Below are positions 603 through 27,227 of a DNA stretch of 34,447 nucleotides, one piece after another. Below the pieces are notes generated by a model. That model saw nothing but the letters and a program-made list of their open reading frames with translations. It was not told the DNA's origin and ran no database searches. Origin of the DNA: an uncultured Caulobacterales bacterium (GTDB lineage Bacteria; Pseudomonadota; Alphaproteobacteria; Caulobacterales; Maricaulaceae); NCBI GenBank assembly GCA_938040095.1, contig CALHXF010000067.1, positions 1 through 34,447 on the forward strand. The letters are read 5' to 3'. How positions within the stretch are numbered: position 1 is the first letter of the stretch; each line of letters starts with the position of its first letter. A program made the position numbers and the translations under genes.

Positions 603-3600
603 CTATTTAGGGCCTCTAGGATTATCTGACACGTAATAGGGTTTTCCATCATTGCCGATGAACATGTTTTCCATTTCATCTCTTGTGAATGGACGTGATC
701 CCAGACGACCAAAAACTGCCATTTGGTGTCCGCTCTCATCCACAGCGCGATCACGGTCGATACCTTTGGCTAGTGATCGCGCAGGAGACTTCGTGCGATG
801 CCAAGCAATTAGTTCAGGTTTCGGTTCTGGAGAAAAGCCGTAGAAATTTGGTTGGGTCTCTGGGCTTGTCAGTTGGATGACTTTGGTGCCGTTCACGCCG
901 TCTGCGACATATGCAAATAATGATGCATTTGTACTGCCAATGACGACGTCTTGAGTGTCGTTCATTTTGCCATCAAACGTCTCGCGACTATAGAGTGTTG
1001 GCGCTTCCGGCTTCTCAATGTCTACAATAACCAAGCCTTCTTCGCCGCCAGCGACATATGCATAGGTTCGTGCAATATACATACCCTGCGCATCCTTCAT
1101 TGGAATTGTTGCGCCTGGGACAAGTTTGGGCTTTCCAAGGTCGGTTACATCCAGAACCTTAAGGCCCTCAGCATCTGTCACCCAAAGATAGCGGAATTGA
1201 ATGTCAGTCTGCCGAGCATCCTGAAGAGGTATTTGCGACGTGACCTTGGGAGCCAGAGGGTCGTTCAGATCAACAACAACCAACCCAATATCCGTGGTGA
1301 TATATGCAAAATGTCCACCAAGCGTAATGTGCCTAGCCCCTTTCAATGCCCCGTCAGCATCCCACGTCAGCGCCCGTTTCAAGAAGTTATTACGCGGCTC
1401 CCCATCTGCTAATGTGTTCACATCTACGAGGATCAACCCTTCAACACTATCGGTTACAAAGGCATAATTATAAATGGGATGGAACGGCTGCTCTTGGTTT
1501 AGCCTCTGCATTTCTGGCGTATTTTTGGCTGGGTTAATTGGCTGGTTGGTTGCCAAGGTCATGCAGGTCGCATTTTTCGTTTTAACGTGTGTGTCATGCC
1601 CCAGTGGTGAGAATGGCGCGGTCACAATGCGTTCAGAAATGCCCTTATTTGCGACAGACGCAATATCATATACACGGAATCCCCCCTTGCCTTCGGCGAC
1701 GTAGAGATACTCGCCTCTATTCTGGATACAGCCGACTTGCCCGCCGGTTTTCTGATGAACATTGGCGATCTCTTCAACAGCGCCTGTTTCTCCAGACCAT
1801 TTATTATCCTTGTCAAAAATGTCGCCGCGTTGCCAGTTTATCAACTCGCGATCATTCCGTTCGACATGTGCTTTATAATAATCAGGATATGCATATTTTT
1901 GCAGGTATGACCCAAAGACAGCTTGAGGTTCATCCCATTCGGTCACGCGAACCGCTTCCAAACCCCCATCAAGGCCAACATAATTGTGCATGCCAACAAA
2001 GTTGACGAAATTCGTTCCGAGCAACATGAGTTGGGCCATGATCGCATTGTTGTCCCCCTCAACAGAAAGATGACAGTCTGAGCAGGTTTTCGTTTCCTCA
2101 CGGCGCACAGTATGCGGGAAATGGGGCGCGAATGCCTGGCTCGAATACCCGACGGCCGATACTGGCGGTTGCTGCACATAAATGCGTTCGCGGTTTAAGT
2201 TTGTTGAAGACAGCACAAGTGCGGATGTTGACCGAATTGGCGCAATCGAATTGCCCTTAGAGCTCTGATGTTTACCGAGCTGGAACATCTGATCCCGCGC
2301 AACCTGAGGATTATAGGTCGCATAATTGCGGGTCGTCCCGCCTTCGTATTTATGTGATTTCTTTTTCCAATTTGCTTCGATCGGAAGATGACATCCACCG
2401 CAGCTGGTCGTCCAAGACAGGTGACACGTATAGCATTCCATTTCTTCATCATCATGGGCAAGATTTTCGGGTGCGACGTCGTCACCCCAATCGACATTAT
2501 TCTTTGCCACGGTTTTCGCCCAAGCGGATTTCTCGTTAAAGTCTGGATGGTCTTTGGTTACACTATCCTTCACGAGACTGACTTTCCATGTCAGCTCAGG
2601 ATCCAAAACCGACCTTTGTAACAGCACATCTTGGCCGTCTTCCTCAACCCATTCAAACCTACGCTTTCCGTCAGGATTTCTGAGCGCCGTTAAATCTGTT
2701 CCACCCGGACGGGCAGCGGGACCAGAGGTATATAAGTTCGGCAATTTTTTGGCTGTGCCATGGCAATCCTTACATCCGATCTCAACGGCGCTCGCGACCT
2801 CGCCGTGAATAAAACCGTCCCCATGGCTGTCTTGCGTGAAATGACAATCAACGCAGTTCATACCCTTTTCGGCATGAATAGACATCATGTGTACAGTTTT
2901 GCCTGGGTTCACGCCGACCGGTACAAATTTAGCCTCATCACCCTTTCTGAATTTTTCAGGATCATCTGGATCTACGATATTACCGTCTTTGTCTAAAAGG
3001 TTACCTTTGCGGTCCCGCTTGAACACGGCTCGAAAATTCCAACCATGCCCATGATAATCGGCAAATTGGGTGTCATTTAATTCACGGTTTAGGTCATACA
3101 CATTGCGAGAGAACTCTGGATCACCCCACAGCCCGCGTACGGCAGCACCCTCAGGGTTGCGCTCTAAGACTTCATGTTGTTCTTCTATCGTCGGGTATTT
3201 TTGCTCTTCTGGCCACATCTTGGCCGCGTCAGACTCATAATCCCACATCGTATACCCAAGAAATGAATTCAGGAAGATATTTGGTTGGTGCATATGACAA
3301 TTCATGCACTGGCTTGTTGGGATGGCACGGGTAAATGCGTGCTGAATTGGATGACCTTTTTCGTCTTTCGGAATGGTCGGATCTTTTGAAAAACTCTTAC
3401 CGTCACGTCCATATTTTGCGTAGATAGAACTGTGCCGCGGTTCTCTGTCATTGGCATAAACAACATGACAAGACGCGCAACCTGAATTTCGATAATCACC
3501 AGGTTGATCATTCGTGCCCATGAACCAAGTAAACGGATCATTTAGACGCGTTTTATGGATATTGAGTACGGGGATGGCCACGCGAGACCCTGTTCCTGGC

Positions 3601-4484
3601 CCTCTGTTTGACTGCCGAATATCTGGACGCCCTGGTTCTTCAATACGTTGGATTTGCCCAGCCGCATTGGGAAGTCCAATTTCAGGGAACTGCGTTCCGA
3701 TGTTTCGGCCACCAGGCTCAAAAACGCGAAACGTATCTGCGGGTGGAATTACATTCCAAGCGGGCAGAGGACCTACTTTTTGGAGTATGCCCGCAGCTTT
3801 TTGCGCCTCTGTTAGTCCGTCTTCAGTGCCCGGTGAGGTCAATACAGCTGGCTTACCATCCGTTGTATAGGCCTCGCCGATATTATAATTTTTGTTTGGC
3901 AGAATACCGTTATTGTAAGCCGCTCCACCAAAGAACATTGCCCCTGTCGCCATTAATGATCGCTCTGCCTGAACGATTTGTTCCAGATGACAGGATCCAC
4001 ATGACTCCCGCGCTACGCGGTAATCTGATGGGTTTACAAATCGAATATATTCTGGGCTTTCCTTGTTCAGTAATGTGTAGCTGCGCTTAGGGTTTGCAGA
4101 ACTAGGGTAGTGCCACGTTTCAGGATATTTCGGTTGAACATGAGCTTGATCGCGAAACGCCTCATATTCAGGTGCCTCTTCATTTAACAAAACTGACACT
4201 TTGATCGCAGCGTCGCCGCCATGACAATCTGTGCATCCCAAGACAACAGATGGAATATCATGCATGGTTTTTTGATCTGAATTCGTATGACACGTAATAC
4301 AGCCAGAGCTCTTCGTCTGCGCTTCGGCCGCAGTCTGGACACGCGGGGCTGGTGGTGTGAATGCGTATGTAATTTCGCGCGGCACTTCGTAGTCGCCCGC
4401 CGCATAAGAAAATATCGACAAGCTAAGGCCCGTCAGCAGCATCAAGAAGATTGCAAACAAGTGATATATGTATGATCGCGCCAT
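603..4484 (-). CDS. Exported decaheme c-type cytochrome with C-terminal LVIVD-type beta-propeller repeats
   Basis: Ten CXXCH motifs (CITCH, CTDCH, CGSCH, CASCH, CMNCH, CVDCH, CKDCH, CYTCH, CGGCH, CSDCH). About six repeats such as FAYITTDIGLVVVDLNDP, LWVTDAEGLKVLDV and AYVAGGEEGLVIVDIEKP. N-terminal signal peptide. ATG at 4484 preferred over TTG at 4487. Confidence 0.93.
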   Translation of the reverse strand: MARSYIYHLFAIFLMLLTGLSLSIFSYAAGDYEVPREITYAFTPPAPRVQTAAEAQTKSSGCITCHTNSDQKTMHDIPSVVLGCTDCHGGDAAIKVSVLLNEEAPEYEAFRDQAHVQPKYPETWHYPSSANPKRSYTLLNKESPEYIRFVNPSDYRVARESCGSCHLEQIVQAERSLMATGAMFFGGAAYNNGILPNKNYNIGEAYTTDGKPAVLTSPGTEDGLTEAQKAAGILQKVGPLPAWNVIPPADTFRVFEPGGRNIGTQFPEIGLPNAAGQIQRIEEPGRPDIRQSNRGPGTGSRVAIPVLNIHKTRLNDPFTWFMGTNDQPGDYRNSGCASCHVVYANDREPRHSSIYAKYGRDGKSFSKDPTIPKDEKGHPIQHAFTRAIPTSQCMNCHMHQPNIFLNSFLGYTMWDYESDAAKMWPEEQKYPTIEEQHEVLERNPEGAAVRGLWGDPEFSRNVYDLNRELNDTQFADYHGHGWNFRAVFKRDRKGNLLDKDGNIVDPDDPEKFRKGDEAKFVPVGVNPGKTVHMMSIHAEKGMNCVDCHFTQDSHGDGFIHGEVASAVEIGCKDCHGTAKKLPNLYTSGPAARPGGTDLTALRNPDGKRRFEWVEEDGQDVLLQRSVLDPELTWKVSLVKDSVTKDHPDFNEKSAWAKTVAKNNVDWGDDVAPENLAHDDEEMECYTCHLSWTTSCGGCHLPIEANWKKKSHKYEGGTTRNYATYNPQVARDQMFQLGKHQSSKGNSIAPIRSTSALVLSSTNLNRERIYVQQPPVSAVGYSSQAFAPHFPHTVRREETKTCSDCHLSVEGDNNAIMAQLMLLGTNFVNFVGMHNYVGLDGGLEAVRVTEWDEPQAVFGSYLQKYAYPDYYKAHVERNDRELINWQRGDIFDKDNKWSGETGAVEEIANVHQKTGGQVGCIQNRGEYLYVAEGKGGFRVYDIASVANKGISERIVTAPFSPLGHDTHVKTKNATCMTLATNQPINPAKNTPEMQRLNQEQPFHPIYNYAFVTDSVEGLILVDVNTLADGEPRNNFLKRALTWDADGALKGARHITLGGHFAYITTDIGLVVVDLNDPLAPKVTSQIPLQDARQTDIQFRYLWVTDAEGLKVLDVTDLGKPKLVPGATIPMKDAQGMYIARTYAYVAGGEEGLVIVDIEKPEAPTLYSRETFDGKMNDTQDVVIGSTNASLFAYVADGVNGTKVIQLTSPETQPNFYGFSPEPKPELIAWHRTKSPARSLAKGIDRDRAVDESGHQMAVFGRLGSRPFTRDEMENMFIGNDGKPYYVSDNPRGPK

Positions 4485-6421
4485 CAATAGGTCAGCGTCG
4501 CATTGAGTAGCGCGGAAAGATAGCGGTTTTTATCGTCATTATTTGCAAAAACACGATCAAACCCTCTCCCCGGCTCCAGTGATGCAATCGAACCCCTGAG
4601 TACAATATTCTGCGAGAATTTGGGCCGCCAAATTGTAGAGGCTGAGAGATCATACCCGATCGTTTTATTGATATCTCCTTGGACCCTCAAAACTTCTAAT
4701 ATGTCGGTCTTGTCAAACTGAAGTACATTGGCATTTAAGGATAGGCGAACCTCGGGAGTGAGGTCAAAATCGGCGCCTAAGCCTAATAGCCGAGTCCCAG
4801 GGTTGTTGAAATTACTTTGCCCTTGTTCTTTCGACGAGCGCAAAGAATTTAATATGCCGTTTCGCCCACTGAGACCTACCGCACGCCCGCCACCTATAAA
4901 TGGAACGTTTTGTCTGATCCAATAAGACGAGTCTGCGCCCGCAAATTGAGGGTTTTCGAATATGGCATCGAAACCCGTTTCCACATCATCATATGGGTCG
5001 CCATCACCCGTCGCAAAAAGTCCCGACAACCTAAACCGCATCCAATTATAGTCGTAAGACAACTCTGCAGCTGCGAAGCCTGCACTGATCGTAGCAGGTT
5101 TACCTGTGAAAATGTTGTCACGGTCTTCACCAATCGCGTAATAGGCGGAACCCGTGATGTTTAGGCGCTTGAAACGTCCATCGACATTGTAACCGAAATA
5201 TCCAACGTCATAATCACGGGCCCGTAAATTCCCGATCAAAGCGGGGCGCACAGGGAACCCATTCGTATCTATTTCACTCTGCGCGCCTTCCCGGTTACCA
5301 TTGTAAACAACTGTAACTTGCGACGTAAGCCCCGGAACGGGAAAGTCCTGCCGGTAGAGGTTTGCTAACAAGATCACATCGTAACGCGGCGTTCTCAAAA
5401 CAGCGTTCAACCCAGAATTTGTGTCTTTTTCAAGCCTCATGAATGCGGCTAAATTATATTGGTATCGGTTGTTATCTCGGTTCCCAAAAAACCTAACCCC
5501 AGGCTGGCTGTCCTGAAAAAGAAAACCGCGGAAGTCAGTAGAGAACGGCTGGATACCGACACGCACAGAATCAAAGTCGTACAGATCTGAGACATTGCGA
5601 ATATGGTAATCTATGAACGCTTCTTGTATCCCAAGAAAGACATCGGTGCGCTCGGTTCCTTTGGACGGCTCGACATATAGCACCCGCTTTTCATTGACGC
5701 GCGCGTGATTGATATTGAGGGCGGCCGTTAGCCTAAATTCTAAATCCTGAGGTTTAAACGTTGTATTGCCTTGGATCAGGGCGGCACTCGCCACGAAGGT
5801 TTGCGCCAACAAAAGCGTATCAGGATCCCCAAAGAGATCATTTGATCGCGCTTCCGTTGTTTGAACGCCAACAGGAATAGGAAAGCTACGGGGTTCAATA
5901 ACCGTATCAGAAATACCTGTTAGAACCAGAAACCAATCCTCTGTACCCTTTAGGGGGCGATCACCTTTCAAGGTATTTTGATTGTAAGGGTCCCACCACC
6001 GCTCATTTACCCCAAAATTCTCAATAACGCGCCATCGGTCTGGCAATGGGATTTCGTCTGTCGGAAAGGTCGCGGGCTGTGGAGGCGCGACAGACGCAGG
6101 ATCAAACGGACGATCCCGCGTGGGCAAGGGTTCAGCTTCACGGCCTGGTATACGCCGCGTTGTCTGTGGCCTGTTCACAGGGTTTGTATCGGCAACACTA
6201 TCTGGAGATGTTTGGTCTGTCTGCGAATACGTTTCTGAAATTTGAGCCGTCTCAAAAAATTCGAGGATTATGGGTTCCCCGCTCACAACATCGAACCCAT
6301 CAAGAACCGTAAACGCAGGTTTCAAACTCGGTATGGGAACGTCAGATGTCGCCCTCACCTCCGTCGCAAACGCCACACAGAAAAGAGCAACACCAAATGA
6401 GATCCTACGGTCCCAGAGCAT
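4484..6421 (-). CDS. Probable outer-membrane beta-barrel/porin-like protein
   Basis: Signal peptide MLWDRRISFGVALFCVAFATEVRA. Proline-rich N-terminus, then alternating beta-strand-like sequence, with C-terminal aromatic residue (NATLTY). ATG at 6421 overlaps the upstream stop. The ORF track starts at TTG 6436. Confidence 0.75.
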   Translation of the reverse strand: MLWDRRISFGVALFCVAFATEVRATSDVPIPSLKPAFTVLDGFDVVSGEPIILEFFETAQISETYSQTDQTSPDSVADTNPVNRPQTTRRIPGREAEPLPTRDRPFDPASVAPPQPATFPTDEIPLPDRWRVIENFGVNERWWDPYNQNTLKGDRPLKGTEDWFLVLTGISDTVIEPRSFPIPVGVQTTEARSNDLFGDPDTLLLAQTFVASAALIQGNTTFKPQDLEFRLTAALNINHARVNEKRVLYVEPSKGTERTDVFLGIQEAFIDYHIRNVSDLYDFDSVRVGIQPFSTDFRGFLFQDSQPGVRFFGNRDNNRYQYNLAAFMRLEKDTNSGLNAVLRTPRYDVILLANLYRQDFPVPGLTSQVTVVYNGNREGAQSEIDTNGFPVRPALIGNLRARDYDVGYFGYNVDGRFKRLNITGSAYYAIGEDRDNIFTGKPATISAGFAAAELSYDYNWMRFRLSGLFATGDGDPYDDVETGFDAIFENPQFAGADSSYWIRQNVPFIGGGRAVGLSGRNGILNSLRSSKEQGQSNFNNPGTRLLGLGADFDLTPEVRLSLNANVLQFDKTDILEVLRVQGDINKTIGYDLSASTIWRPKFSQNIVLRGSIASLEPGRGFDRVFANNDDKNRYLSALLNATLTY

Positions 6422-8418
6422 TACTTTCCCTCGCAAGGGTTCTGGGCGCTTGAATCAAGAAACGGGGCAAAGGGGCAACTCACATATCGTAAACGAATAT
6501 CTTCACCTTTTACGGGCACGGTAATGATATCGGCGCGCACGTCTTTCGGTGCGTTGCCAAGCGTGCCCAATTTCACACCTGCGTTGTGAACGCCGAGGAA
6601 AGAGATCATATCATCTTGGTCAATCCCGTCACCTGACACCCCAATACCGCCAACGAGTTGGTTCCCTTTGTAAATCGGTACAGATCCTGGAAATATCTGA
6701 ATCCCATTCTGCAATCTATTTTGGCCGGCAATCGCATCAGGCAAAAAGGTACACCGTTGCGCCGTATCGGTATTTGGTAATCCACCACTTAGAACAAAGG
6801 TTACATGCTCAAGGATGTTGCCTCCAATGAGGTCCTCTTGAAGCCCCGTCGCAAAAGGGCTGAATTCAGAAATAGGTCGAGATAATGGCCCATTGTCGGT
6901 CCCGACTTCGCCGTCTGGAAAATAGGGCCTTGAAAGATTTCCGCCCGATCGATCCGCAAATGCAACCGTTCCCGTCAAAGCGTTCCCGTCGTTTAAGAAA
7001 GACCTGATTTGTGGAACACGCTCAGAAATTTCTACGTTGGGACCAGGCGCACCTGAAGCGATAGAGCTCAACCTCGTACCTAATAGATCACTTCCAGCAC
7101 TCGTGTTGGAGAAAAAAGTCGCCGTTCTTGCCTTTTGCAAAGAGACATCCGTTCCGAAAATCGGCGCATCGGGCGATCGTACGACACCTAAAATAGTTCC
7201 ATATGTATCAACCACGGAGATGCTAACTTGAGCACGGCTATTTAGAGGTCTCCGAATTTGCGCTCGCGACGATGTCATGACGGTAAAGGCTTCTTCGATG
7301 ACGGTCCGAACCTCGACAGCCGTTAGAGGACTTGCCACTACGCCACCATCAGCCCCTCCCCTAACCGGATAACGGTTAACGCCCGAACCATCAGACAGAA
7401 CAAAAACATCAGGATTCGCATATTCAGACGAGGTCGCAGGACGCATCCCAGAACCTTCCAAACTATAAGCCTGTCCTGGAACAATAGCCCCCGCACTATA
7501 TCCGTTCACAGATTGTAGAGCGCCCTCTGTTGCAAGAAGGCTTGCATAGGCAGGTGTGGACGCCAAATCTGAGCTCAAATCACTTTCATCGCGATCCAAA
7601 AATCGCAGCGTTGTACCATCAACCGATATACGCTCCGCACGGATATTCAGCGGCGCTGAAAATCCTGACATACCCGCGACAGCGATCAGTTCTTCATCAT
7701 CTCGATCAATGTCGTTGACTTCCGTATCAAACCCATAATCGGCATCCGCAGATATCCCGATGCCGCCAACCACAACTCCATTTTTATAGAGCGGAAAGCC
7801 GCCAGGGTCAGCAGAAAGGCCCAATGGCGCACGTTTCGGCCCAATGGTGTTCCCGAAACGTTGCGAAAGATCAGAACATGGCAGTTGTGAAAATTGCACC
7901 CCGAAGAGCGGGCCACTTTCCAACCCAACAGCATTTTTAGAAGGTGGAAAATGCTCCTGCACAATCATACTTGCCGTTCTCGTCGAGAACGCATTGCCGG
8001 CAGAGGATAGATAAGCTCCGGTTAGGGCTTTCGATATAGCGGCGAGTTCGCGCGGCACATCCTGACCTTGTAATCCAACATTTGCGACCCCCTCAAAATT
8101 TCGAGGACCGCGGCGGATTTTTGTGGTGGCACTGGCTCCATTCATTGTAAAAACAGCGAGAACATTACCAGGGCGGTCAACAACGGCAATCACGCCCCTA
8201 AGATTTCGAGCTTTTGCCTCAGATACCGCTTGAGCGATTATGTCCTCTATATCTGAAATGGTCAAATTTTCAGGAGCTGGAACCGCGTAAAGCGCCTGCC
8301 CAACAAGCGGCGCGGGCGGCGGAGCTTGGACGGGCGCTGTTGTTGACGTTCCGCCACCACCGCAGGAATTGAGGAAAAAGGCTGATCCAGATATAAAGGT
8401 TAGGAGGCTAACCCGCAT
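6421..8418 (-). CDS. Lipoprotein with two GlcG/HbpS (DUF336) heme-binding-type domains
   Basis: Lipobox-like FFLNSCGGGG. Two copies of the family pattern: EDIIAQAVSEAKARNLRGVIAVVDRPGNVLAVF...GGIGISAD...DEELIAVAG, and VRTVIEEAFTVM...QVSISVVDTYGTILGVVRSPDAP...GGIGVSGDGIDQDDMISFLG. Confidence 0.82.
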   Translation of the reverse strand: MRVSLLTFISGSAFFLNSCGGGGTSTTAPVQAPPPAPLVGQALYAVPAPENLTISDIEDIIAQAVSEAKARNLRGVIAVVDRPGNVLAVFTMNGASATTKIRRGPRNFEGVANVGLQGQDVPRELAAISKALTGAYLSSAGNAFSTRTASMIVQEHFPPSKNAVGLESGPLFGVQFSQLPCSDLSQRFGNTIGPKRAPLGLSADPGGFPLYKNGVVVGGIGISADADYGFDTEVNDIDRDDEELIAVAGMSGFSAPLNIRAERISVDGTTLRFLDRDESDLSSDLASTPAYASLLATEGALQSVNGYSAGAIVPGQAYSLEGSGMRPATSSEYANPDVFVLSDGSGVNRYPVRGGADGGVVASPLTAVEVRTVIEEAFTVMTSSRAQIRRPLNSRAQVSISVVDTYGTILGVVRSPDAPIFGTDVSLQKARTATFFSNTSAGSDLLGTRLSSIASGAPGPNVEISERVPQIRSFLNDGNALTGTVAFADRSGGNLSRPYFPDGEVGTDNGPLSRPISEFSPFATGLQEDLIGGNILEHVTFVLSGGLPNTDTAQRCTFLPDAIAGQNRLQNGIQIFPGSVPIYKGNQLVGGIGVSGDGIDQDDMISFLGVHNAGVKLGTLGNAPKDVRADIITVPVKGEDIRLRYVSCPFAPFLDSSAQNPCEGK

Positions 8419-9790
8419 TAGATCTCAACTCCTGTAGGCGCCCCCGCAACACTTTTAGAGCGGTCGTCAGTTGGTCTTGATCGTACTCATTTGGACTTTC
8501 GACGGCATCATATGCCTTGTTGATTTCATTTCGCATGCCTGACGTTTGCGCAAATGAGACTTGGTTTGCTGCAACCATGGAACTCAACAGCGTATCGACA
8601 GCCATAATTGCTTGTTCGGCCGCGACATAATCGGTGTAACGGCGTGTCAGAGCGTCCTCCACGACAACCTCAAGAATGCCTAACGTCTGATTTTTAGAAA
8701 AATCAGTCTCAGTCACAACCTTCATCAAATCTTCAGCCAAGCCTTCCAAGCTCTGGCTCACTTCACTTGCATCCCGACCGCCACCAGCCAAACTCGCGTG
8801 GAAAGCCTTAATTTCAGCATCAAGTTTTGGCGCAAGGTCTGGAGCAATTTGCTTCGCAGTGGCCAATAACATGATCATATTTGCGTCGTTAAACTTTACG
8901 ACTCCTGGAGCTTCGGGCCGTCCAGGGTTGGACCGAACTTCAGGGCGCCAATCCGGGTCATCTGAAATCTCTCGATGGCACGCGAGACAGTCGAAGAAAA
9001 CAAGCTCTGGGAAGACGCCGTCTCTGTTTAAGGTTGGCGTCTGAAAAAGCGCGAGGTTTCTCTTCATCGCCTTCGCTTGACCAATGGCCCAAATGCGAAC
9101 GCCTGGCTGCACGACCTTTCGCTCAAAATAATCTACGTCCTCATCGTGATGACTTTGCAATGACGTAAAGAGGTCCAACTCAAATGAAATACGCGGGTGT
9201 CCCGCAGCCATCATTCTATGTGTCACGAATTGGTTGTTGTCCGCGCTGCCTAAGTGACAAGACAGACAGACGTCGGCTCGCGAGCCCGCGTCTTCCAAGG
9301 GCGTTAGGCCGAGGCTAACATTCTTCGTATGGCTGGCCCCGACGTCATAATGCTGGGTCAACCAATTGACGGACCCACCATGACATGCCTCGCATCCAAT
9401 TCCGTCATCTACTTGAAACTTGGGGCCCCGTAAGTTTTCTGCGACATTATCTGAATGGCAGCCGAGACAAGAAGGCTCTTCTTCGGGCTTGCCTAAATTG
9501 AGCCGCTGCGTAATCGCACTCGATCGTTCTGAGAGTAAAATCTTATACGCTCGCAGATGCGCGCCTGTTGTTGAAGTTTGGTCTTGCCAACTGAGAATTT
9601 CATTCTGGCGCACAACGACACCTGTCGCCTCTTGTCGCGAGTGACATGTCGAGCCGTAACAGCCCATAATCCCTTGATGCAAAGCTTCGTTCGCTGCCGT
9701 CGTAGAAGGTTGCACTTGAGAAACGGCTGGAGACGTAGCCAAAGAGAGCAGGAAAATAACTGCAAATGTACATTTCGATAAAAATCGCAA
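8408..9790 (-). CDS. Periplasmic multiheme cytochrome c (cytochrome c554-like family)
   Basis: Four CXXCH motifs (CLGCH, CEACH, CLSCH, CLACH) plus CYGSTCHSR (CX4CH). Signal peptide. TTG start, with AAGGAGG upstream. Confidence 0.85.
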   Translation of the reverse strand: MRFLSKCTFAVIFLLSLATSPAVSQVQPSTTAANEALHQGIMGCYGSTCHSRQEATGVVVRQNEILSWQDQTSTTGAHLRAYKILLSERSSAITQRLNLGKPEEEPSCLGCHSDNVAENLRGPKFQVDDGIGCEACHGGSVNWLTQHYDVGASHTKNVSLGLTPLEDAGSRADVCLSCHLGSADNNQFVTHRMMAAGHPRISFELDLFTSLQSHHDEDVDYFERKVVQPGVRIWAIGQAKAMKRNLALFQTPTLNRDGVFPELVFFDCLACHREISDDPDWRPEVRSNPGRPEAPGVVKFNDANMIMLLATAKQIAPDLAPKLDAEIKAFHASLAGGGRDASEVSQSLEGLAEDLMKVVTETDFSKNQTLGILEVVVEDALTRRYTDYVAAEQAIMAVDTLLSSMVAANQVSFAQTSGMRNEINKAYDAVESPNEYDQDQLTTALKVLRGRLQELRSNAG

Positions 9791-9942: not shown

Positions 9943-12399
9943 ATGGCAAATAAATACGATATAGCCGTCATCGGCTCTGGGCCAGCCGGCATCAGCGCAG
10001 CTGCCCACGCGGCAGAGCTTGGTCTTTCTCACGTCCTTCTCGAAAAAACAGACCACCTTTCCGATACAATTTACAAGTATCAAAAAGGCAAGCACATCAT
10101 GGCCACGCCCGACCAGCTTGTCCTACGAAGCGACATTGATTTCGAAGCTGGCAAACGGGAAGATATTTTGGCCCGTTGGGAAAATCAAACGCAGCAAGGC
10201 GAACTTAACGTCGCTTTCAATTCTGATGTCAGTGAAGTCTCCGGAGAGAAAGGCGACTTTCTTATTAAGACTAAATCTGGCGAGACCTTTAATGCCGCCC
10301 ATGTAATTTTAGCCATCGGGACGCAGGGCAATCCAAATACAATGCGTTGTCCTGGCGGCGATTTACCACATATTCAATACACATTGGATGACCCTTACGC
10401 TTACTTCGACGAAGATATTATCGTTATCGGCGGCGGTGATGCTGGGATCGAAAATGCAATGGGGCTTATTGCGAATACGCTCCTGGCCAACCGTGTGACA
10501 TTGGTTCAGCGTGCGGATGGCTTCCCGCGCGCAAAAGAAGCCAATGTAAAATCCTTGCTGCAAGCCATGAATGAAGGGCGTTTGGACGTCCTGACACAAG
10601 CGGAGACGAGCCTCGTCGAAGATAAGTTTATCACCCTCAATGTGAGTGATGGCGAAACACGATTGCCCTGCGACCGTATTATTGCCCGCATAGGCTCCGC
10701 ACCACCACGGAAATTTGTTGAGAGCTGCGGGGTCGCTTTTGCGTCAGATGATCGGATGGCATATCCGATTTTGAGTCCAACTTTCGAAAGCTCCGTTCAT
10801 GGCCTCTTTGTCGTCGGTGCATTGGCTGGATACCCTCTCATCAAACATTGCATGAACCAAGGCTATGACGTCGTGGAGCACATAAATGGCAATGTTGACT
10901 TGAAACCAGCAGATGAACCCTTGCTCGCTGAGAAGTTTGCAAAGCTCCCCGGCGATAACGACGTCAGTGCTATTCTTGAGTTTTTGCGGCAGAAAATCAC
11001 AATTTTCAATGATCTCACGTCGCTACAAATGCGTGAGTTCATGCTGGACTCTCAGGTACACGTTTTCAAAAAGGGCGACACCGTCTTCAAACGAAATGAT
11101 TACGGCTCATCCTTGTTCTCTATTGCAGAGGGCATCGTTGACGTTCTCATCGACCCTAATGATTCCACAAAAACCATCGCAATTTCTGAGGGTGAAATTT
11201 TTGGCGAAGCTGGATTGATTTCTGGGCGACGTCGAAATGCAACGATCGTCGCGGCCTCGGACTGTATTCTGGTAGAGACGCCGCGAAACTCCGCGCGAAA
11301 ACTCATTTCAACGGTGCCCGCTGTCGAAACGCGGGTGAACCAGATTGCCGTTGAGCGCCTGCTCTCTCAAATATTCGGAGCAGGGCTCTCGAAGACAGAA
11401 TTTTCTGCGGTCATTGCGGATGCTGAGATTAAAACGATAAATGCCGGTGAGACCCTTATTGAAGAAGGCGCGGACGACACCGACATATTCATCATCCGGT
11501 CAGGGTCGATGTTGGTTGAAAAGCATATCGGCGGAAAAGATGTGTTTTTGTCTTATGTCTCCGCCGGGAGTTATGTTGGCGAGATGGCGCTCTTCGAAGA
11601 AGGCCGCCGCACAGCGACGGTGAAGGCTGCTGTAAAATCTCAAGTCATTCGCCTTAAAGGCGCGTATTTCGAATCCCTATTGGGTGCGAACCCTGATCTC
11701 AAAGCAAAAGTCATGGATGAGCTCTCAGACCGTAGAGCTATGAATGCATTCGTAGAGGGTCAAAAAAGCGGATTTGATAGCGTCGCAGACCTCTATGGTG
11801 CGCGGGCAAACTTTCTGATTGAACAAGGTCTAGGCGAGGCCACTGACGCTTTACTCATCGACGAAACCCTCTGCATTGGCTGTGACAATTGCGAGGTCGC
11901 GTGTGCGGAAAGTCATGACGGCATCTCGCGCCTCAATCGAGAGGCGGGACAAACATTTGCGCATATCCATGTCCCTACATCCTGCCGCCATTGCGAACAT
12001 CCACATTGCATGTCTGACTGTCCGCCAGACGCTATTCATCGCGCGCCCGATGGTGAAGTTTTCATCGACGACAGCTGTATCGGATGTGGAAATTGCCAAC
12101 GATATTGCCCCTACGGCGTTATTCAAATGGAGAAGACGCCACCCAAAAAGCCGAATTTATTGTCGTGGATGTTGTTCGGCGTCGGGCCAGGACCCGGTCA
12201 AGCCAATAAGGCTTGGACGAAAAAGACGCTTGCGAAGAAAGGCAACGATGCACCTAAAGTCGCGGTCAAATGCGACATGTGTAAGGGCATCACGGGCGGC
12301 GCGGCCTGCGTGAGGGCCTGTCCAACAGGCGCCGCCATTCGCGTGTCACCAGAGGAATATCTATCCTATTCCAAAGACCCGACCAAAGCCAAAGCTTGA
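9943..12399 (+). CDS. Fusion: FAD/NAD(P)H oxidoreductase (thioredoxin-reductase fold) + two cyclic-nucleotide-binding domains + 4x[4Fe-4S] ferredoxin domain
   Basis: GSGPAG and VIGGGDAGIENAMG dinucleotide motifs. Phosphate-binding cassettes GEIFGEAGLISGRRRNATIVA and GSYVGEMALFEEGRRTATVKA. Ferredoxin cysteines CIGCDNCEVAC, CRHCEHPHCMSDC, CIGCGNCQRYC, CDMC...CVRAC. Confidence 0.93.
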   Translation: MANKYDIAVIGSGPAGISAAAHAAELGLSHVLLEKTDHLSDTIYKYQKGKHIMATPDQLVLRSDIDFEAGKREDILARWENQTQQGELNVAFNSDVSEVSGEKGDFLIKTKSGETFNAAHVILAIGTQGNPNTMRCPGGDLPHIQYTLDDPYAYFDEDIIVIGGGDAGIENAMGLIANTLLANRVTLVQRADGFPRAKEANVKSLLQAMNEGRLDVLTQAETSLVEDKFITLNVSDGETRLPCDRIIARIGSAPPRKFVESCGVAFASDDRMAYPILSPTFESSVHGLFVVGALAGYPLIKHCMNQGYDVVEHINGNVDLKPADEPLLAEKFAKLPGDNDVSAILEFLRQKITIFNDLTSLQMREFMLDSQVHVFKKGDTVFKRNDYGSSLFSIAEGIVDVLIDPNDSTKTIAISEGEIFGEAGLISGRRRNATIVAASDCILVETPRNSARKLISTVPAVETRVNQIAVERLLSQIFGAGLSKTEFSAVIADAEIKTINAGETLIEEGADDTDIFIIRSGSMLVEKHIGGKDVFLSYVSAGSYVGEMALFEEGRRTATVKAAVKSQVIRLKGAYFESLLGANPDLKAKVMDELSDRRAMNAFVEGQKSGFDSVADLYGARANFLIEQGLGEATDALLIDETLCIGCDNCEVACAESHDGISRLNREAGQTFAHIHVPTSCRHCEHPHCMSDCPPDAIHRAPDGEVFIDDSCIGCGNCQRYCPYGVIQMEKTPPKKPNLLSWMLFGVGPGPGQANKAWTKKTLAKKGNDAPKVAVKCDMCKGITGGAACVRACPTGAAIRVSPEEYLSYSKDPTKAKA

Positions 12400-13256
12400 T
12401 GAAGACACGCAAGACCAGCCCTGCTCAACACGTCAGCTTTCTGGCCCATAGAAGGTTTCTGTGGTTGAAAGTCTCAGGCGCTCTCTGCGTCCTCAGTATT
12501 GTTGGCTACGTGTCTACTGATTTTGATCCCGTCCGAAATGGTGGGACATGGTACGGATACACACTGGGCGTTATCGGTGCTCTACTCATTCTGTGGCTGT
12601 CTTTATTAGGCGCGCGTAAGCGCGCAATCACAGCCGGTCATTGGAGCTTGAAGGGGTGGACATCAGCTCATGTTTACCTTGGTGTCTCGTTGATCATCGT
12701 CGCAACGCTACACAGTGGATTCCAATTCGGATGGAATGTTCACACGCTCGCCTATGCGTTAATGATCTTTGTCATTCTGTCGGGCATTATCGGTGTCTTC
12801 TTCTATGTCTATATTCCCCGCCGCATGAGCGACAATAGAGCGGAAATGGGGCAGATGGACATGCTCAAAGATATCTCAAATCTGAATGCCATGCTTGATG
12901 ACGCGGCCCAACCCTTGAGCGATAAATATGTACCCATTGTCCGAAAGGCTATTGATAAAACAAAGTTGGGCGGCTCAATATTCCGTAGATTATCTATCAA
13001 TGATGCGCGTTGCTCCACGCGCGAAGCCCTCACTTACTTTCAGACAGAAATGCGGAACGTTGAAGCCAAAGAACGCTCTGAAATTCTAGACATGATTTCA
13101 GTATTGGAACGTAAGAATTCGCTCTTGCTCAAAATCCGAAAGCACACGCGCTACAAGGCTCTTTTACAAATTTGGCTATATGTCCACTTACCTGTCACTT
13201 TCGCTTTGATAGCGGCCCTGATTGCCCACATCATTTCCGTTTTTTACTATAATTAG
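12399..13256 (+). CDS. Membrane b-type cytochrome, ferric-reductase/cyt b561-like
   Basis: Hydrophobic TM segments with two H-X13-H pairs: AHVYLGVSLIIVATLH and VHLPVTFALIAALIAH. ATG at 12399 overlaps the upstream TGA. Confidence 0.78.
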   Translation: MKTRKTSPAQHVSFLAHRRFLWLKVSGALCVLSIVGYVSTDFDPVRNGGTWYGYTLGVIGALLILWLSLLGARKRAITAGHWSLKGWTSAHVYLGVSLIIVATLHSGFQFGWNVHTLAYALMIFVILSGIIGVFFYVYIPRRMSDNRAEMGQMDMLKDISNLNAMLDDAAQPLSDKYVPIVRKAIDKTKLGGSIFRRLSINDARCSTREALTYFQTEMRNVEAKERSEILDMISVLERKNSLLLKIRKHTRYKALLQIWLYVHLPVTFALIAALIAHIISVFYYN

Positions 13257-13265
13257 GGAGGCGAC

Positions 13266-15059
13266 ATGACGAGCACTATACGTAATTTGAAACGCAGCCC
13301 CACAGGTCGTGAGAGCATTCGAGAACGCGATTACGACGGGTCAGAGCTCTCATTTGGGCGCGACATACAATCCGACGTTCAATTGCAAGATCTCAGCGTT
13401 GCACTGAAACATGCCAAGCTAAGGTATGATGAGACCGGTGAGGTTTTCATCGATATTAGCGCGGGCCAAAAAGCTCTTATCAATAATCGGATCAGAACGG
13501 GAGTCGTCGGACCCCTTCAGGTCGGGACCAAAGTGAAGCTAGGGATCTATTTGATAACCCTTGAGGCCCCTACCGAAAAATCTAAGCTCGTCGCCCAGTT
13601 GGAAGTTGCCGAAGATATTTCTGGGACAGAAAATGAACCAGATGAGCAAAGCGTTTTTGGTCTAAAACGCGCTCTTCCTTCCAAACGCATAATGGCATGG
13701 GCGTTCGCATTTGTGGTATTGGTCACCTGCCTCGTATTACCAACGCATATCAATAAATATCCTGAAGGTAAGGTCGCAGTAGCCACCCCGTTTCAAGCTG
13801 ACCTATTTTGGAATAGCGGCCCAATCTCATTGCTGCATTCAAATCTAAAATCAGACTGCCAAAGTTGTCATGTCAAAGGGTGGGAAGCCGTTACCGACAC
13901 AACATGTTTGGACTGTCACACAGAACTGAAAGATCACGCGAAACCCGAAAGACTGCAACAAAGCACACCACTATCGACTGGGTTTGAGGCCGTATTGGGC
14001 GATGTAAGTGAAACATTTGGACGACCCGTTGACCGCTGCACCTCTTGCCATGTCGAACATAACGGGCGGGCTCACATCATGCCGTCCAGTCAGTCCCTCT
14101 GTAGCGATTGTCATGCGGATCTAGACAAAGCCTTACCAGATACAGAGCTGCTCAATGCCGCCGACTTCGGCACAGCTCACCCTCAATTTCGACCATCTGT
14201 GATCACGTCTCCTAGCTTTGATAAGCCGCTCTACACACGGGTCTCTTTAGATAAAGATCCGAAAGGGGTCTCCGGGTTGAAATTCCCACATGACGTACAT
14301 TTGTCCAAAACTGGCGCGGTGGCTAAGATGGCCAGCACATTAGACTCTCAATATGAATTTGCCGACGGAGTTGGGTGCCTTGACTGTCATAGTGAAGAAG
14401 CGGGCGGTGCCCTGTTTGAACCCGTGAGCATGACCAATGATTGCGCCATGTGTCACTCCATCGTTTTTGAAGACGATGAAGGTTATCCAAGAACATTGCG
14501 GCACGGAGAACCCAAAGAAGTCATCGCCTCTATGAGGGATTTCTATGAGGCTAAAGCATTAGGAAACATTCGCGATGCTGAGATGAATACCACAACTCGC
14601 CGGCGTCCTGGACGCGCATCGCAAATCCGGGACCTCAATCGAAGAGAGCTTGCATTTAAGCAGGCGGAAAATAGAACGATAGAAAAAGTCGAAGCGATAT
14701 TTTCGGAGGGTGGGGCCTGCTACGATTGCCATGCCATTGACCGGCCAGCGGAAATTGCGACTTTGGATTTCAAGGTCCAGCCCATCAGTCTTAATGACGC
14801 CTTCTACCCCCTATCACCATTCAATCATGAGCAGCACGAAATCAAAGGGCTGTCGTGCGATACATGCCATAGTGCGGAGACGTCAAAGACATCCGATGAT
14901 GTATTACTGCCAAAAATTGAGGTTTGCCGTGATTGTCATATTGGCGAAGAGAGCTATCGTGAAGGCGGGGACTTTGCACATGGGAAATTCCCGACTAATT
15001 GCTTGACCTGTCATGCTTACCACGACGGCGAGCATGGTAAGGACAATTCAAAAGACTGA
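13266..15059 (+). CDS. FHA-like domain + TM segment + decaheme cytochrome (cytochrome c3/c7-type)
   Basis: N-terminal LSFGRDIQSDVQLQDLSVALKHAKL...INN. One TM (IMAWAFAFVVLVTCLVLP). Then ten CXXCH: CQSCH, CLDCH, CTSCH, CSDCH, CLDCH, CAMCH, CYDCH, CDTCH, CRDCH, CLTCH. SD AGGGAGG. Confidence 0.9.
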   Translation: MTSTIRNLKRSPTGRESIRERDYDGSELSFGRDIQSDVQLQDLSVALKHAKLRYDETGEVFIDISAGQKALINNRIRTGVVGPLQVGTKVKLGIYLITLEAPTEKSKLVAQLEVAEDISGTENEPDEQSVFGLKRALPSKRIMAWAFAFVVLVTCLVLPTHINKYPEGKVAVATPFQADLFWNSGPISLLHSNLKSDCQSCHVKGWEAVTDTTCLDCHTELKDHAKPERLQQSTPLSTGFEAVLGDVSETFGRPVDRCTSCHVEHNGRAHIMPSSQSLCSDCHADLDKALPDTELLNAADFGTAHPQFRPSVITSPSFDKPLYTRVSLDKDPKGVSGLKFPHDVHLSKTGAVAKMASTLDSQYEFADGVGCLDCHSEEAGGALFEPVSMTNDCAMCHSIVFEDDEGYPRTLRHGEPKEVIASMRDFYEAKALGNIRDAEMNTTTRRRPGRASQIRDLNRRELAFKQAENRTIEKVEAIFSEGGACYDCHAIDRPAEIATLDFKVQPISLNDAFYPLSPFNHEQHEIKGLSCDTCHSAETSKTSDDVLLPKIEVCRDCHIGEESYREGGDFAHGKFPTNCLTCHAYHDGEHGKDNSKD

Positions 15060-15129
15060 AAACAAGACGGGCATAGACTCAGGCGCACAGAAAATTTATC
15101 CACTTTCTTCAGGAAAGAGACTTTGTTTC

Positions 15130-15993
15130 ATGATGAATGATCAAAACAGAATGATCATCGCACAGATCACCGATTTGCACATCGGGTTTGAAGGCGAAGG
15201 TGAGATTTGCCAAAATTCTGGTAAACTGCAAAGCGTCCTACGAAACATCGACACGCAAATCCTCAAGCCCGACGTCTTGCTCATTACGGGGGACCTCGTC
15301 GAGAGCGGATCTCACTGGGCCTATTCCCAACTTCGTGACCAGTTGCGCGGTGTTGATTACCCAATTTTATGGGCGGTTGGAAATCATGACAATAGAGACG
15401 CATTTGCTGAGATATTCCCCGATGCTGAGTTCAACGCAGGGTTCCTTCAATACGCGGTTGAGGATTGGCCCCTGCGTATCATTACATTGGATACGCTACG
15501 ACCTGAATATCATGGTGGGTATCTGTGCGAGACGCGTCTCAAATGGCTGGATCAAAAATTATCAGAGAGACCTAGTCAGCCCACCCTGATCGCAATGCAC
15601 CACCCGCCTATCGATACAGGCATTGCGTGGATGACAGAGCGTGACGACGCCCCCTGGATTTTGGGTTTGAAAGCGGTCCTCAAAAAACATGATCAAGTTG
15701 TCCACATCACGGCAGGCCATATTCATCGATCCATATTCCGTAAATTTGACAATCTAACGGTTTCCGTATGTCCAGCTATCGCACCAGAAGTAAGCCTAGA
15801 ACTGGCCCCAATTGATCCAAATCTCCCTGATAACCGCCCGCTCTTAAACACCTCATTTCCGGGGTATTGTTTGCATCATTGGAATGGAGACACACTCACC
15901 ACACATGCTGCGACCGTTACGGCAGGCGAAGCTATTGTTAAACATGACTCAGATCATGCCTTCATCGTCCAACATACGATGCATGGGAAATGA
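15130..15993 (+). CDS. cpdA: Calcineurin-like metallophosphoesterase, 3',5'-cAMP phosphodiesterase CpdA-like
   Basis: Motifs DLHIG, ITGDLVE, GNHDNR, MHHPP, GHIHRS. The ORF extends to 15013, but homologous sequence begins at MNDQNRMIIAQITDLHIG. Confidence 0.83.
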   Translation: MMNDQNRMIIAQITDLHIGFEGEGEICQNSGKLQSVLRNIDTQILKPDVLLITGDLVESGSHWAYSQLRDQLRGVDYPILWAVGNHDNRDAFAEIFPDAEFNAGFLQYAVEDWPLRIITLDTLRPEYHGGYLCETRLKWLDQKLSERPSQPTLIAMHHPPIDTGIAWMTERDDAPWILGLKAVLKKHDQVVHITAGHIHRSIFRKFDNLTVSVCPAIAPEVSLELAPIDPNLPDNRPLLNTSFPGYCLHHWNGDTLTTHAATVTAGEAIVKHDSDHAFIVQHTMHGK

Positions 15994-17002: not shown

Positions 17003-19339
17003 TTATTTTGAAGTTGCGATGTGGACGCCGTTCCAGTCAGGCGCGGGCGGCGATACCTTATACTCATCTATGCGCGCGGCCATCACATCATAATAGCCAT
17101 CAAAACCAAGGGGCCGCGCCAGTAATTTTAGTTTCGGGATTTCGATGACCGCCGCCTCCCATTGTTGGTCTCTGAACGCAGCCAGAAAGTCATTGTGTAG
17201 GGCCTTCAATTTGTCGAAATCTGATGTCGCCGACTGGGTCTCATCACCTACAAGGATCCAAATACGCTCTGGTGTTTCACGTCCGATGACCTTTATCAGA
17301 TCGGCTTCTATAATCGCGAAATCAGAGACAGCCTGAGCCGTTGTATCTCCGATCAATGACGAGACACGATATTGTTTTGTTAGCCCTTCAATACGTGACG
17401 CGAGGTTGGCGGCATCCCCAATCATGGAGTATGAAAAGCGTTGCTCCGACCCCAAATTTCCGACGCAACACACACCTGAATTGAGGCCAATTCCCATGGC
17501 AACATTATCAGGCCAGTTTACGTCATCCTGCGCTGTATAAGACTCATTCAGCTCGGCCAAAAGCGCATTCATTTTAAGGACTGCCCGCGCCGCATTTTTT
17601 TCATGGGCATCATCATCTAACGGCGCATTCCAAAACGCGACGATGGCATCGCCGATATATTTATCGATTGTCGCCTTGGAATCTTGAAGTGTGTTCGTCA
17701 TTGGCGTCAGGAAAATATTTAAGAAAGTTGTGATTTCTTGAGGCTCCAAGGCCTCTGAAATTTTTGAGAAACTTCGAATGTCCAAAAATAAAATCGTAAT
17801 ATATTTCTCCTCACCTCCCAGTTTGAGGAGGTTCGGATCGTCTGACACCTGCTTCACCATTTCCGGGGAAAGATACATAGAAAAGGCCGATTTAATGCGC
17901 GAACGTTCTGACTCTGTCATGTAAAAGGACACAATCGTCATCAATCCATATGTCGTGAAAATGGTCAACAACGGATAGGTCGGATTAATCAACAGCAGGT
18001 ATTTCGAGAATGCCGACCAAGAGAACCCTGCAATTCCAATAGCCAGCCCTGCACTAAAAATCGCGCCCCATGCTGCGGTCATACGCGGGAGAGTAAAGAC
18101 CAGAAAAAGACCCGGAACCAATATGGTCAGAAGCTCCCAAATTTCGGCCCAATAGGGACGATTCAAAATTTGTTTCCCCACGAGCCCCTCGCCAAGAATT
18201 TGCTCCGTAATCTGAGCATGTGCAAGCACACCCGGTTCCCCGCCCCGCATTGGGGTCGTAACAATATCTTTCAGGCCCGGCGCGCTTGTTCCGATAAAAA
18301 CGATATTTCCAGCAACACGGTCAGACCAGTTTTCCATAGGGATGGACCGATCTAAAATCGTTGAGGCAGATATGAAACGAGCCTTCTGAAGATCAGAAGA
18401 TGGTTTGGTGAAATACACTTGGAATCCACCATTTTTTGAGATCGGCCAGTTGAAATCACCGGTGGCCATAGACGAAAGGTAACGATCTTTGGCCCACCCC
18501 CCGATTTCTCCAGAACCATCGGAGCTCTTGAGTTGAAAGGCACCTGCCCCCTGAACGGTTCGGATCATCTCCGCGGATAGGCTTGGGTACAATTTTCCAT
18601 TATACTTATAGACCATTGGGGCGGTGCGAATGATCCCATCACCCGTTGGGTTAAAGCTGACGAAGCCTTCACCTGCTGCTGATTTTCCCAAGACGGGTAG
18701 AGCCGCAAATGCCCCCTTAAAGTCGAGAATATTTTCGACTTCTTTTACATCGCCATTTTCCTCAATTTTTACATCCCACGAATATGTGAAACCCGTTGAC
18801 GTCGTAGGGGAGCTTCGTGTGCTCTCACCTACGAGAAAAAAGCCAGTGACGACATTGGATTTAGCAAAGGATTGTGAGAGAATTTCGTCATGAGGCAGGA
18901 GGCGTTTTAGGGCGCTCATATCTCCAGTCGCCATCGGATTGTTTTGCAATACCCCAATCATATTTTCGGGCGATGTCCGATCGGGTTCCGAAAAAACAAT
19001 ATCATATCCGATAACGGCCGCCCCTGCTTCAGTCAGGCGATCATTGAGGTCGGCAACGATCGTTCTCGGCCACGGCCATTGGCCTATTGTCTCAAGGCTC
19101 TTATTATCAATATCAATTATCCGTACAGGCACCTCAGGAAGATATTCCCGAGGTTGCCAAGTTTGGTAGCGATCGAAGAGCAGGTTCCCCAGCTGTTCAA
19201 CCATGCGGGGTTTGGATATATTGGCAAAGTAGAACGCCAGCAGGCACAACAAACCCAACGCGCTTGGGATGAAAACTTTCTGTCGCTTTGAGGGCATTTT
19301 AACCCAATTTTTAAAGCGGTTCATCATCTCAAAAATCAC
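17003..19339 (-). CDS. CHASE2-sensor class III adenylate/guanylate cyclase
   Basis: CHASE2 signature VRIIDIDNKSLETIGQWPWPRTIVADLNDRLTEAGAAVIGYDIVFSEPD. TM segments. Catalytic FLDIRSFSKISE, IDKYIGDAIVAFWNAP, YSMIGDAANLASRIEG. Confidence 0.93.
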   Translation of the reverse strand: MIFEMMNRFKNWVKMPSKRQKVFIPSALGLLCLLAFYFANISKPRMVEQLGNLLFDRYQTWQPREYLPEVPVRIIDIDNKSLETIGQWPWPRTIVADLNDRLTEAGAAVIGYDIVFSEPDRTSPENMIGVLQNNPMATGDMSALKRLLPHDEILSQSFAKSNVVTGFFLVGESTRSSPTTSTGFTYSWDVKIEENGDVKEVENILDFKGAFAALPVLGKSAAGEGFVSFNPTGDGIIRTAPMVYKYNGKLYPSLSAEMIRTVQGAGAFQLKSSDGSGEIGGWAKDRYLSSMATGDFNWPISKNGGFQVYFTKPSSDLQKARFISASTILDRSIPMENWSDRVAGNIVFIGTSAPGLKDIVTTPMRGGEPGVLAHAQITEQILGEGLVGKQILNRPYWAEIWELLTILVPGLFLVFTLPRMTAAWGAIFSAGLAIGIAGFSWSAFSKYLLLINPTYPLLTIFTTYGLMTIVSFYMTESERSRIKSAFSMYLSPEMVKQVSDDPNLLKLGGEEKYITILFLDIRSFSKISEALEPQEITTFLNIFLTPMTNTLQDSKATIDKYIGDAIVAFWNAPLDDDAHEKNAARAVLKMNALLAELNESYTAQDDVNWPDNVAMGIGLNSGVCCVGNLGSEQRFSYSMIGDAANLASRIEGLTKQYRVSSLIGDTTAQAVSDFAIIEADLIKVIGRETPERIWILVGDETQSATSDFDKLKALHNDFLAAFRDQQWEAAVIEIPKLKLLARPLGFDGYYDVMAARIDEYKVSPPAPDWNGVHIATSK

Positions 19340-21770: not shown

Positions 21771-22216
21771 GTGTTGTCATCCATTACACGTTTCAGAACA
21801 GCTTGTTCAGCCTCCGTAAGTTGGCGCGGCGTTTCTATATTGGGTTTCTGCCTGCGCGCTGCGAAGATCAACCATATGCCCATACCAAAAATCGTAAGCG
21901 CCGGGAGAAACCAAAGTAAATATGTGTTCTTTTGCAATGGTGGTTTTAGCAGGACGTAGTCACCATAGCGAAGACGCATAAATTCTATAATTTCTGCATC
22001 TGTTGCGCCAACGGAAATACGCTCTCGCACTAAAACTCGCATATCTTTCGCGAGGGCAGCATCGGATTCTTCGATTGATTGATTTTGACAGACAACGCAA
22101 CGCAGGGATCGCCCCACTTCGCGCGCCCGCGACTCAACCTCCTCAGCACTCGGGACGGTTTGTGCAAAGGCGATACTCGATAGGAGCAACAGACAAAGAC
22201 AGATAACGGACCTCAT
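21767..22216 (-). CDS. ccmH: Cytochrome c maturation protein CcmH/CycL
   Basis: LRCVVCQNQSIEESDA active-site motif. Signal peptide and C-terminal TM. Confidence 0.93.
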   Translation of the reverse strand: MRSVICLCLLLLSSIAFAQTVPSAEEVESRAREVGRSLRCVVCQNQSIEESDAALAKDMRVLVRERISVGATDAEIIEFMRLRYGDYVLLKPPLQKNTYLLWFLPALTIFGMGIWLIFAARRQKPNIETPRQLTEAEQAVLKRVMDDNT

Positions 22217-22752: not shown

Positions 22753-22754
22753 CT

Positions 22755-25704: not shown

Positions 25705-25709
25705 ATCTC

Positions 25710-27020: not shown

Positions 27021-27227
27021 TGCGCCCCTATCCGTCACACATTCCTTTGAAGAAATATGATGACATAAACTAATAATTAGACGCAATTCGCTCCGAGAAT
27101 ATGTCAGCTAGCAACGCGACCGTGAATAATCAGTAATCTTGTTTCTTCTGACATACAATAGTCATTCATTTAGCATTCGTCGAAATGTAGTTTCGGTCTC
27201 CCAACAATTGAGAAACAGGGGTACTGT

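Follow-up and report, generated by a model that had tools for sequence, protein, structure and literature searches.

We find that a leftward operon from an uncultured Caulobacterales bacterium, previously proposed as a porin-cytochrome conduit, is one half of a larger divergent cluster. In the window analyzed here, the whole 34,447-nt stretch of contig CALHXF010000067.1 (assembly GCA_938040095.1), the operon occupies 603-9790, while the functional unit runs past the divergent promoter to 15059 or beyond; the span given by the original prediction is too short. Judged from gene content and sequence motifs, the best reading is that the cluster joins a PCC4-type inner module to a different outer module. 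The component logic of the operon is conserved as one block and, in the genomes checked, always found with an inner-membrane redox module of the kind proposed for PCC4. That the outer proteins form an outer-membrane complex exchanging electrons with the outside, by a geometry other than that of MtrAB, seems to us evenly balanced between right and wrong.

Results

The leftward operon encodes two multiheme cytochromes, a lipoprotein and a predicted barrel

Read from the promoter outward, the operon encodes c554, HbpS2, BAR and LV, all on the minus strand. All four ORFs are open over the coordinates given below and, as listed, adjacent frames overlap by 4, 16 and 11 nt, consistent with one operon. 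c554 (8408-9790) is a periplasmic pentaheme cytochrome with four CXXCH motifs and one CX4CH. It matches the Pfam family Cytochrome_C554 (E = 5.8e-10) and, by profile, the solved cytochrome c554 1bvb (E = 4.7e-7); its C-terminal ~180 residues carry no heme motifs. Four CXXCH occur in 62/62 sequences and the CX4CH in 61 of the 62, and divergent members readable in full show the same pattern. HbpS2 (6421-8418) is a tandem GlcG/HbpS-domain lipoprotein, matched by PF03928 in several stretches (E = 5.9e-26). Its signal peptide ends LNSC-GGGG, a lipobox followed by a Gly/Pro-rich tether. This lipobox-type signal is common among close relatives and missing in most divergent members.

LV (603-4487) is an exported decaheme c-type cytochrome with a C-terminal LVIVD beta-propeller (PF08309, E = 1.9e-18) and a conserved tail. 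Its ten CXXCH motifs lie at residues ~63-806, and the protein has 129 residues per heme. Ten hemes were counted in 85 of 86 sequences and in 12/12 more divergent loci. The signal peptide is plain, with no conserved lipobox. The top NCBIfam similarity, which is weak and lies in the heme part, is to ExtM: the ExtM, ExtN and ExtO equivalogs score 81, 30 and 30 bits, under cut-offs of 800, 200 and 200. The MtrC domain PF22113 scores 16.9 bits and does not reach its cut-off of 30. When residues 31-1230 were submitted to structure prediction, the propeller part was modeled with high confidence and the heme region with low confidence. Foldseek matches were generic beta-propellers only, and a PDB sequence search with the LV profile returned no match, including none to a solved multiheme enzyme.

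In ORFs, domains and heme counts, these results agree with the original prediction, which had described a multiheme cytochrome, a probable outer-membrane barrel, an exported decaheme with a C-terminal LVIVD propeller and a tandem GlcG/HbpS lipoprotein. A surface site for the large decaheme is tentative: the signal peptide is plain, and the type II secretion protein GspG, present in 17/21 carriers, is missing in four complete carriers. In two genomes from the same family, GspG is encoded about 10 kb or less from the locus. Type II secretion was nevertheless uninformative as a marker specific to surface export, since 85/100 relatives have GspG.

BAR is predicted to be a narrow, AlgE-like barrel

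BAR (4484-6436, minus strand) contains no heme motif, and the window protein has no Pfam or NCBIfam match. An AlphaFold2 model built from 51 homologues has a mean pLDDT of 67, with most strands well higher; the low-confidence parts are an N-terminal extension of ~165 residues and a big loop. A strand count, which had been proposed as a check on the original prediction, gave 18 predicted strands from the model's listed elements. The nearest solved fold is AlgE (Foldseek E = 3.7e-16, TM 0.68 by target), followed by OprD-family porins. Pfam Alginate_exp matches 4/51 BAR members (best E = 8.7e-4), and a PDB sequence search with the BAR profile found no match. Orthologues end in F or Y in 89 of 89 cases, and this C-terminal residue and the loop conservation described below also enter the assignment as an outer-membrane barrel.

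In the model, one face of the barrel has long loops and the opposite face short turns. If the N terminus is periplasmic, nine long loops point outward and eight short turns inward, an orientation that we assumed from usual outer-membrane protein topology. The best-conserved long segment is a 72-residue loop (476-547) between strands 13 and 14, with a conservation of 0.88, compared with an average of 0.80 for the outward loops and 0.775 for the strands. Such conservation of long outward loops would be unusual unless a partner sits there, and suggests one.

An HMM comparison with MtrB/PioB, likewise proposed earlier, led us to reject membership of that family, as PF11854 gave no match to BAR and none in the host genome. 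With the PF22113 score of LV far under its curated cut-off, this bears out the earlier view that the operon is unlike MtrA/B/C in sequence. Computed ideal backbone diameters are 32-35 Å for 18 strands and 46-50 Å for 26. MtrB is of about 26-strand size with a periplasmic aperture of ~30 Å, and its pore just accommodates MtrA, which measures ~80 x 30 x 35 Å (PMC7198977). Since an 18-strand barrel would have a diameter of 32-35 Å and the MtrB pore just fits MtrA, a folded cytochrome is unlikely to fill BAR. As modeled, BAR probably lacks the width to hold an MtrA-type plug or a heme wire. The original prediction had named an undersized barrel as an argument against a conduit; at the level of an AlphaFold2 prediction, 18 strands come close to that.

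The divergent half encodes a candidate inner-membrane redox module

The right-hand operon, which the original prediction did not cover, starts 152 nt from the leftward one and runs in the opposite direction (9943-15059, plus strand). Its first gene (9943-12399) encodes a cytoplasmic fusion protein, in which a FAD/NAD(P)H oxidoreductase is joined to two cyclic-nucleotide-binding (cNMP) domains and to ferredoxin-type 4Fe-4S domains that match PF13247 (E = 1.8e-9). Because the flavin domain lacks a CXXC thiol pair, this is probably not a thioredoxin reductase. The second gene (12396-13256) encodes an inner-membrane cytochrome b with two WX3HX13H motifs, WTSAHVYLGVSLIIVATLH and WLYVHLPVTFALIAALIAH, and SGIIG. 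Among 61 cytochrome b sequences, all have both WX3HX13H motifs and 56 have SGXXG. By a simple hydropathy method it has four clear segments, with the segment at the first WX3HX13H below threshold; the PCC4 protein has five helices. The third gene (13266-15059) encodes an FHA domain, one transmembrane helix (142-160) and a periplasmic decaheme cytochrome. Ten hemes were found in this FHA protein in 50/50 sequences, and in the divergent members readable in full.

Further genes recur nearby, as counted in the 47 named loci that have at least 10 kb of sequence to either side. A CpdA-like cyclic-nucleotide phosphodiesterase (15013-15993, plus strand) is a frequent neighbor (34/47), while a CHASE2-adenylate/guanylate cyclase (17003-19339, minus strand) and a glutamate dehydrogenase (19375-20727, minus strand) recur in 18 and 15 of these loci. 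The dehydrogenase occupies several different positions; three loci, all from a single genus, have it within the operon. The cytochrome c maturation genes ccmI, ccmH, dsbE/ccmG and ccmF follow (20814-24725, minus strand). The host has a heme-copper oxidase, as does each of the four other carriers that we searched for one.

The cluster is conserved as a block and patchily distributed

c554, HbpS2, BAR and LV occur in this order on one strand in 60 of the 61 named loci that have sufficient flanking sequence. The FAD, cytochrome b and FHA proteins also occur together with HbpS2, BAR and LV in distant families of the Alphaproteobacteria and in a single genome from beyond that class, at LV identities of 57-64%. 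HbpS2-BAR-LV has the FAD, cytochrome b and FHA genes close by in each of twelve divergent loci; in one of these, L134, the FAD gene is on the other side of LV. The FHA decaheme was present in 19/19 LV-positive genomes from the class sample (288 genomes, excluding the window's own; Fisher p = 2.7e-24, for genomes that are phylogenetically non-independent) and in 14/14 LV-positive genomes of a second set. In G079, from this second set, both halves are present 1.7 Mb apart.

LV was found in 8/100 near relatives, in 20/289 genomes sampled across the class and in 11/399 across the phylum, one of them outside the class; the last two counts include the window's own genome. This distribution is patchy and bimodal, with either a strong match or none at E ≤ 1e-20. 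A species-level genome collection holds at least 554 sequence stretches related to LV, and the best 80 of these are mostly from Sphingomonadales, Caulobacterales and related Alphaproteobacteria, including Sphingobium, Novosphingobium, Erythrobacter, Brevundimonas and Phenylobacterium. Members of these genera are known as aerobic heterotrophs rather than as textbook electroactive bacteria. The cluster also occurs on Sphingobium and Sphingopyxis megaplasmids, one of which, from S. herbicidovorans, is typed as conjugative. On the megaplasmids, the gene products are labeled hypothetical, heme-binding or multiheme cytochrome.

The outer module appears to be swappable

Three loci (L156, L157 and L158), from genomes that have the inner module and lack LV, encode a 5-CXXCH cytochrome and a barrel-like protein of ~530 residues. 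The inner module adjoins this pair in L157 and in L158, the latter without a recognizable FAD protein; L156 is a weaker case, because its ORF list has other-strand frames at the FHA match. In L155 and L159, the inner module and c554 have no outer genes nearby. Since the inner module and c554 occur with another cytochrome/barrel-like pair or alone, the outer module looks like an exchangeable end unit. We also considered the barrel-like protein of these PCC4-like loci as a BAR homologue and rejected it, as a three-row profile gave no signal.

Discussion

Gene anatomy and the known properties of these families suggest a relay from NAD(P)H to an outer-membrane complex. The cytoplasmic flavin/4Fe-4S protein would exchange electrons with NAD(P)H, gated by cyclic nucleotide, and the diheme-type cytochrome b would carry them over the inner membrane to the FHA-anchored decaheme, which would pass them to soluble pentaheme c554. 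c554 may dock at an outer-membrane complex of the AlgE-like BAR, HbpS2 and LV. LV, with HbpS2, would be held at the outer face through the long conserved loops of BAR, and an extracellular partner would exchange electrons there. We infer the electron path, complex formation, LV surface exposure and cAMP control, the last suggested by the neighboring cyclase and phosphodiesterase and the two cNMP domains. Because BAR is probably too narrow for a heme wire, the LV/BAR geometry would not be MtrAB-like. The full proposal, a cyclic-nucleotide-gated relay common among aerobic Alphaproteobacteria that needs no MtrA-type wire at the outer membrane and uses BAR, HbpS2 and surface LV as a new exit architecture, is one that we advance tentatively and would sooner bet against than for.

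This relay is favored by the 60/61 gene order, FHA co-occurrence, the PCC3/PCC4 motifs of the cytochrome b and the swappable outer module, and further by the HbpS2 lipobox and tether, the long conserved BAR loops and GspG in 17/21 carriers. Against it stand the predicted barrel, which appears too tight for a c554- or MtrA-sized domain; LV itself, which has a plain signal peptide and, unlike a wire, as many as 129 residues for each heme; the unspecific distribution of GspG and its absence from four carriers; the loss of the HbpS2 lipobox in most divergent members; the low-confidence models of the LV heme region, the BAR N-terminal part and the big loop; and the assumed orientation of BAR. As to direction, He et al. 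took electrons to flow inward, from a donor outside the cell (PMC5566968), while the glutamate dehydrogenase neighbor (15/47) and the flavin protein would fit a route for disposing of NAD(P)H outward.

The same relay could instead end in the periplasm, with LV acting as a multiheme reductase or oxidase and BAR importing its substrate or exporting its product, so that no electrons cross the outer membrane. We regard this as a credible possibility, toward which we remain somewhat skeptical. The narrow pore of BAR and its transport-type fold (AlgE, then OprD-family porins) fit such a role, as do the plain Sec signal of LV and the 4/21 carriers without GspG. The best NCBIfam similarity of LV is moreover to ExtM, from a selenite/tellurite cluster in which selenite reduction depends on ExtI, a porin-like protein that may form a selective channel (PMC5877670). 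However, the outward loops of BAR are conserved like its strands, and the longest far more, which is unusual for a simple diffusion porin. The Gly-rich lipoprotein tether of HbpS2, the PCC-like gene logic and the lack of detectable similarity between LV and solved multiheme enzymes also argue against an enzyme of this kind.

An insulated wire like that of MtrAB, with some hemes of LV or c554 running through BAR, is improbable. Although a periplasmic multiheme, a barrel and a decaheme share the operon, and the real barrel could differ where the ~165 N-terminal residues and the big loop are poorly modeled, the 18 strands are mostly of good confidence and AlgE is the nearest fold. In addition, MtrB has an aperture of ~30 Å for the ~30 x 35 Å MtrA (PMC7198977), the host has no match to the MtrB family, and c554 consists of a c554-type core and a long heme-free part. 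Of the original porin-cytochrome reading, the component logic stands, strengthened by the conserved block and the PCC4-kind inner module; an MtrAB-like insulated wire is not supported. Finally, that periplasmic redox genes just happen to sit beside an unrelated porin is very unlikely: at least one carrier (G079) has its halves far apart, but the order is kept in 60/61 loci, co-occurrence is complete in the genomes checked and identity is still 57% outside the class.

If electrons do pass to or from the outside through the proposed complex, extracellular electron exchange would be far commoner in aerobic soil, plant and marine bacteria than has been supposed, and it would have to work by physical means different from a heme wire inside a wide barrel. 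The cluster is found in cultivated strains. Our searches of the open-access literature found nothing relevant on LVIVD multihemes, no pairing of alginate export with multihemes and no paper on this cluster.

Comparison with known systems

AlgE (PDB 3rbh, 4afk) shares an 18-strand fold with the BAR model (Foldseek E down to 3.7e-16, TM 0.62-0.72 by target). It differs in sequence, with ~12% identity to BAR and marginal Pfam similarity in 4/51 members, and no alginate genes were seen in the locus. MtrCAB shares the general concept of multiheme cytochromes and an outer-membrane barrel (PMC7198977). However, the window barrel is of another size and family (18 predicted strands, compared with the 26-strand size around MtrA), there is no MtrA-like wire, and the large decaheme lacks a lipobox and has an added propeller.

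The ext cluster of Geobacter sulfurreducens (extHIJKLMNOPQS) likewise combines a porin-like protein, a non-heme outer lipoprotein, a periplasmic pentaheme and an inner-membrane cytochrome b, and LV is weakly similar to ExtM (PMC5877670, PMC6148476). Heme numbers and families differ, the ExtM/N/O scores are far under cut-off, and family scans of the locus did not find the rhodanese, Rieske protein or selenocysteine cytochrome that are features of ext.

The cluster also resembles the putative porin-cytochrome clusters of He et al. (2017), whose PCC4, a genomic proposal for Fe(II) oxidizers with no experimental test, comprises 4-, 5- and 10-heme cytochromes, an inner-membrane protein, a porin and an Fe-S/redox protein (PMC5566968). 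The inner-membrane protein of PCC3 and PCC4 has a signature of two WX3HX13H and SGXXG (PMC5566968). PCC3 differs in its multihemes, with medians of 34 and 21 hemes at 22-39 residues per heme, whereas the window proteins have 10, 5 and 10 at 60-129. With PCC4, the window shares a cytochrome b of this signature, cytochromes of ten and of four (plus one) hemes, an Fe-S/redox protein with PF13247 and a porin-like barrel. Since the cytochrome b carries the PCC motifs, the inner half would be PCC4-type. The outer half looks different: the multihemes are 4(+1), 10 and 10 rather than 4, 5 and 10, with LV replacing the 5-heme protein, and this part consists of the decaheme LV with its LVIVD propeller, the tandem-HbpS lipoprotein and the predicted AlgE-like barrel.

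Gene content around the cluster

At three related loci from one genus (L013, L014, and L015), a glutamate dehydrogenase gene within the operon separates the genes for c554, the pentaheme cytochrome, and HbpS2, the tandem GlcG/HbpS lipoprotein. Genes for acetolactate-synthase-like and aldehyde-dehydrogenase-like proteins recur (18 loci each) approximately 7-9 kb upstream of LV, the decaheme cytochrome with a C-terminal LVIVD propeller. In related loci, these genes lie on the upstream side of c554 (e.g., L025:1090-2736).

At 24760-27086, the window also has a gene for a FecR-domain protein and, after it, one for a SlipAM-like barrel. Since similar FecR/SlipAM pairs are found close to the CHASE2 adenylate/guanylate cyclase, a recurrent neighbor of the cluster, in several related loci (L032, L036, and L046), the two genes in the window may belong to the wider neighborhood of the cluster.

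In S. herbicidovorans, a 959 kb plasmid that was typed as conjugative (pMSHV, NZ_CP020539.1; L162) bears the complete cluster. Thus, the cluster can probably be transferred between strains.

Three loci lacking LV resemble PCC4, a proposed type of porin-cytochrome cluster. Their PCC4-like outer modules (L156:11419-17522, L157:4347-9309, and L158:5396-12734) consist of a 5-CXXCH cytochrome and a barrel-like protein from an unnamed family, for which Pfam gave no match; L156 contains two c554-type genes.
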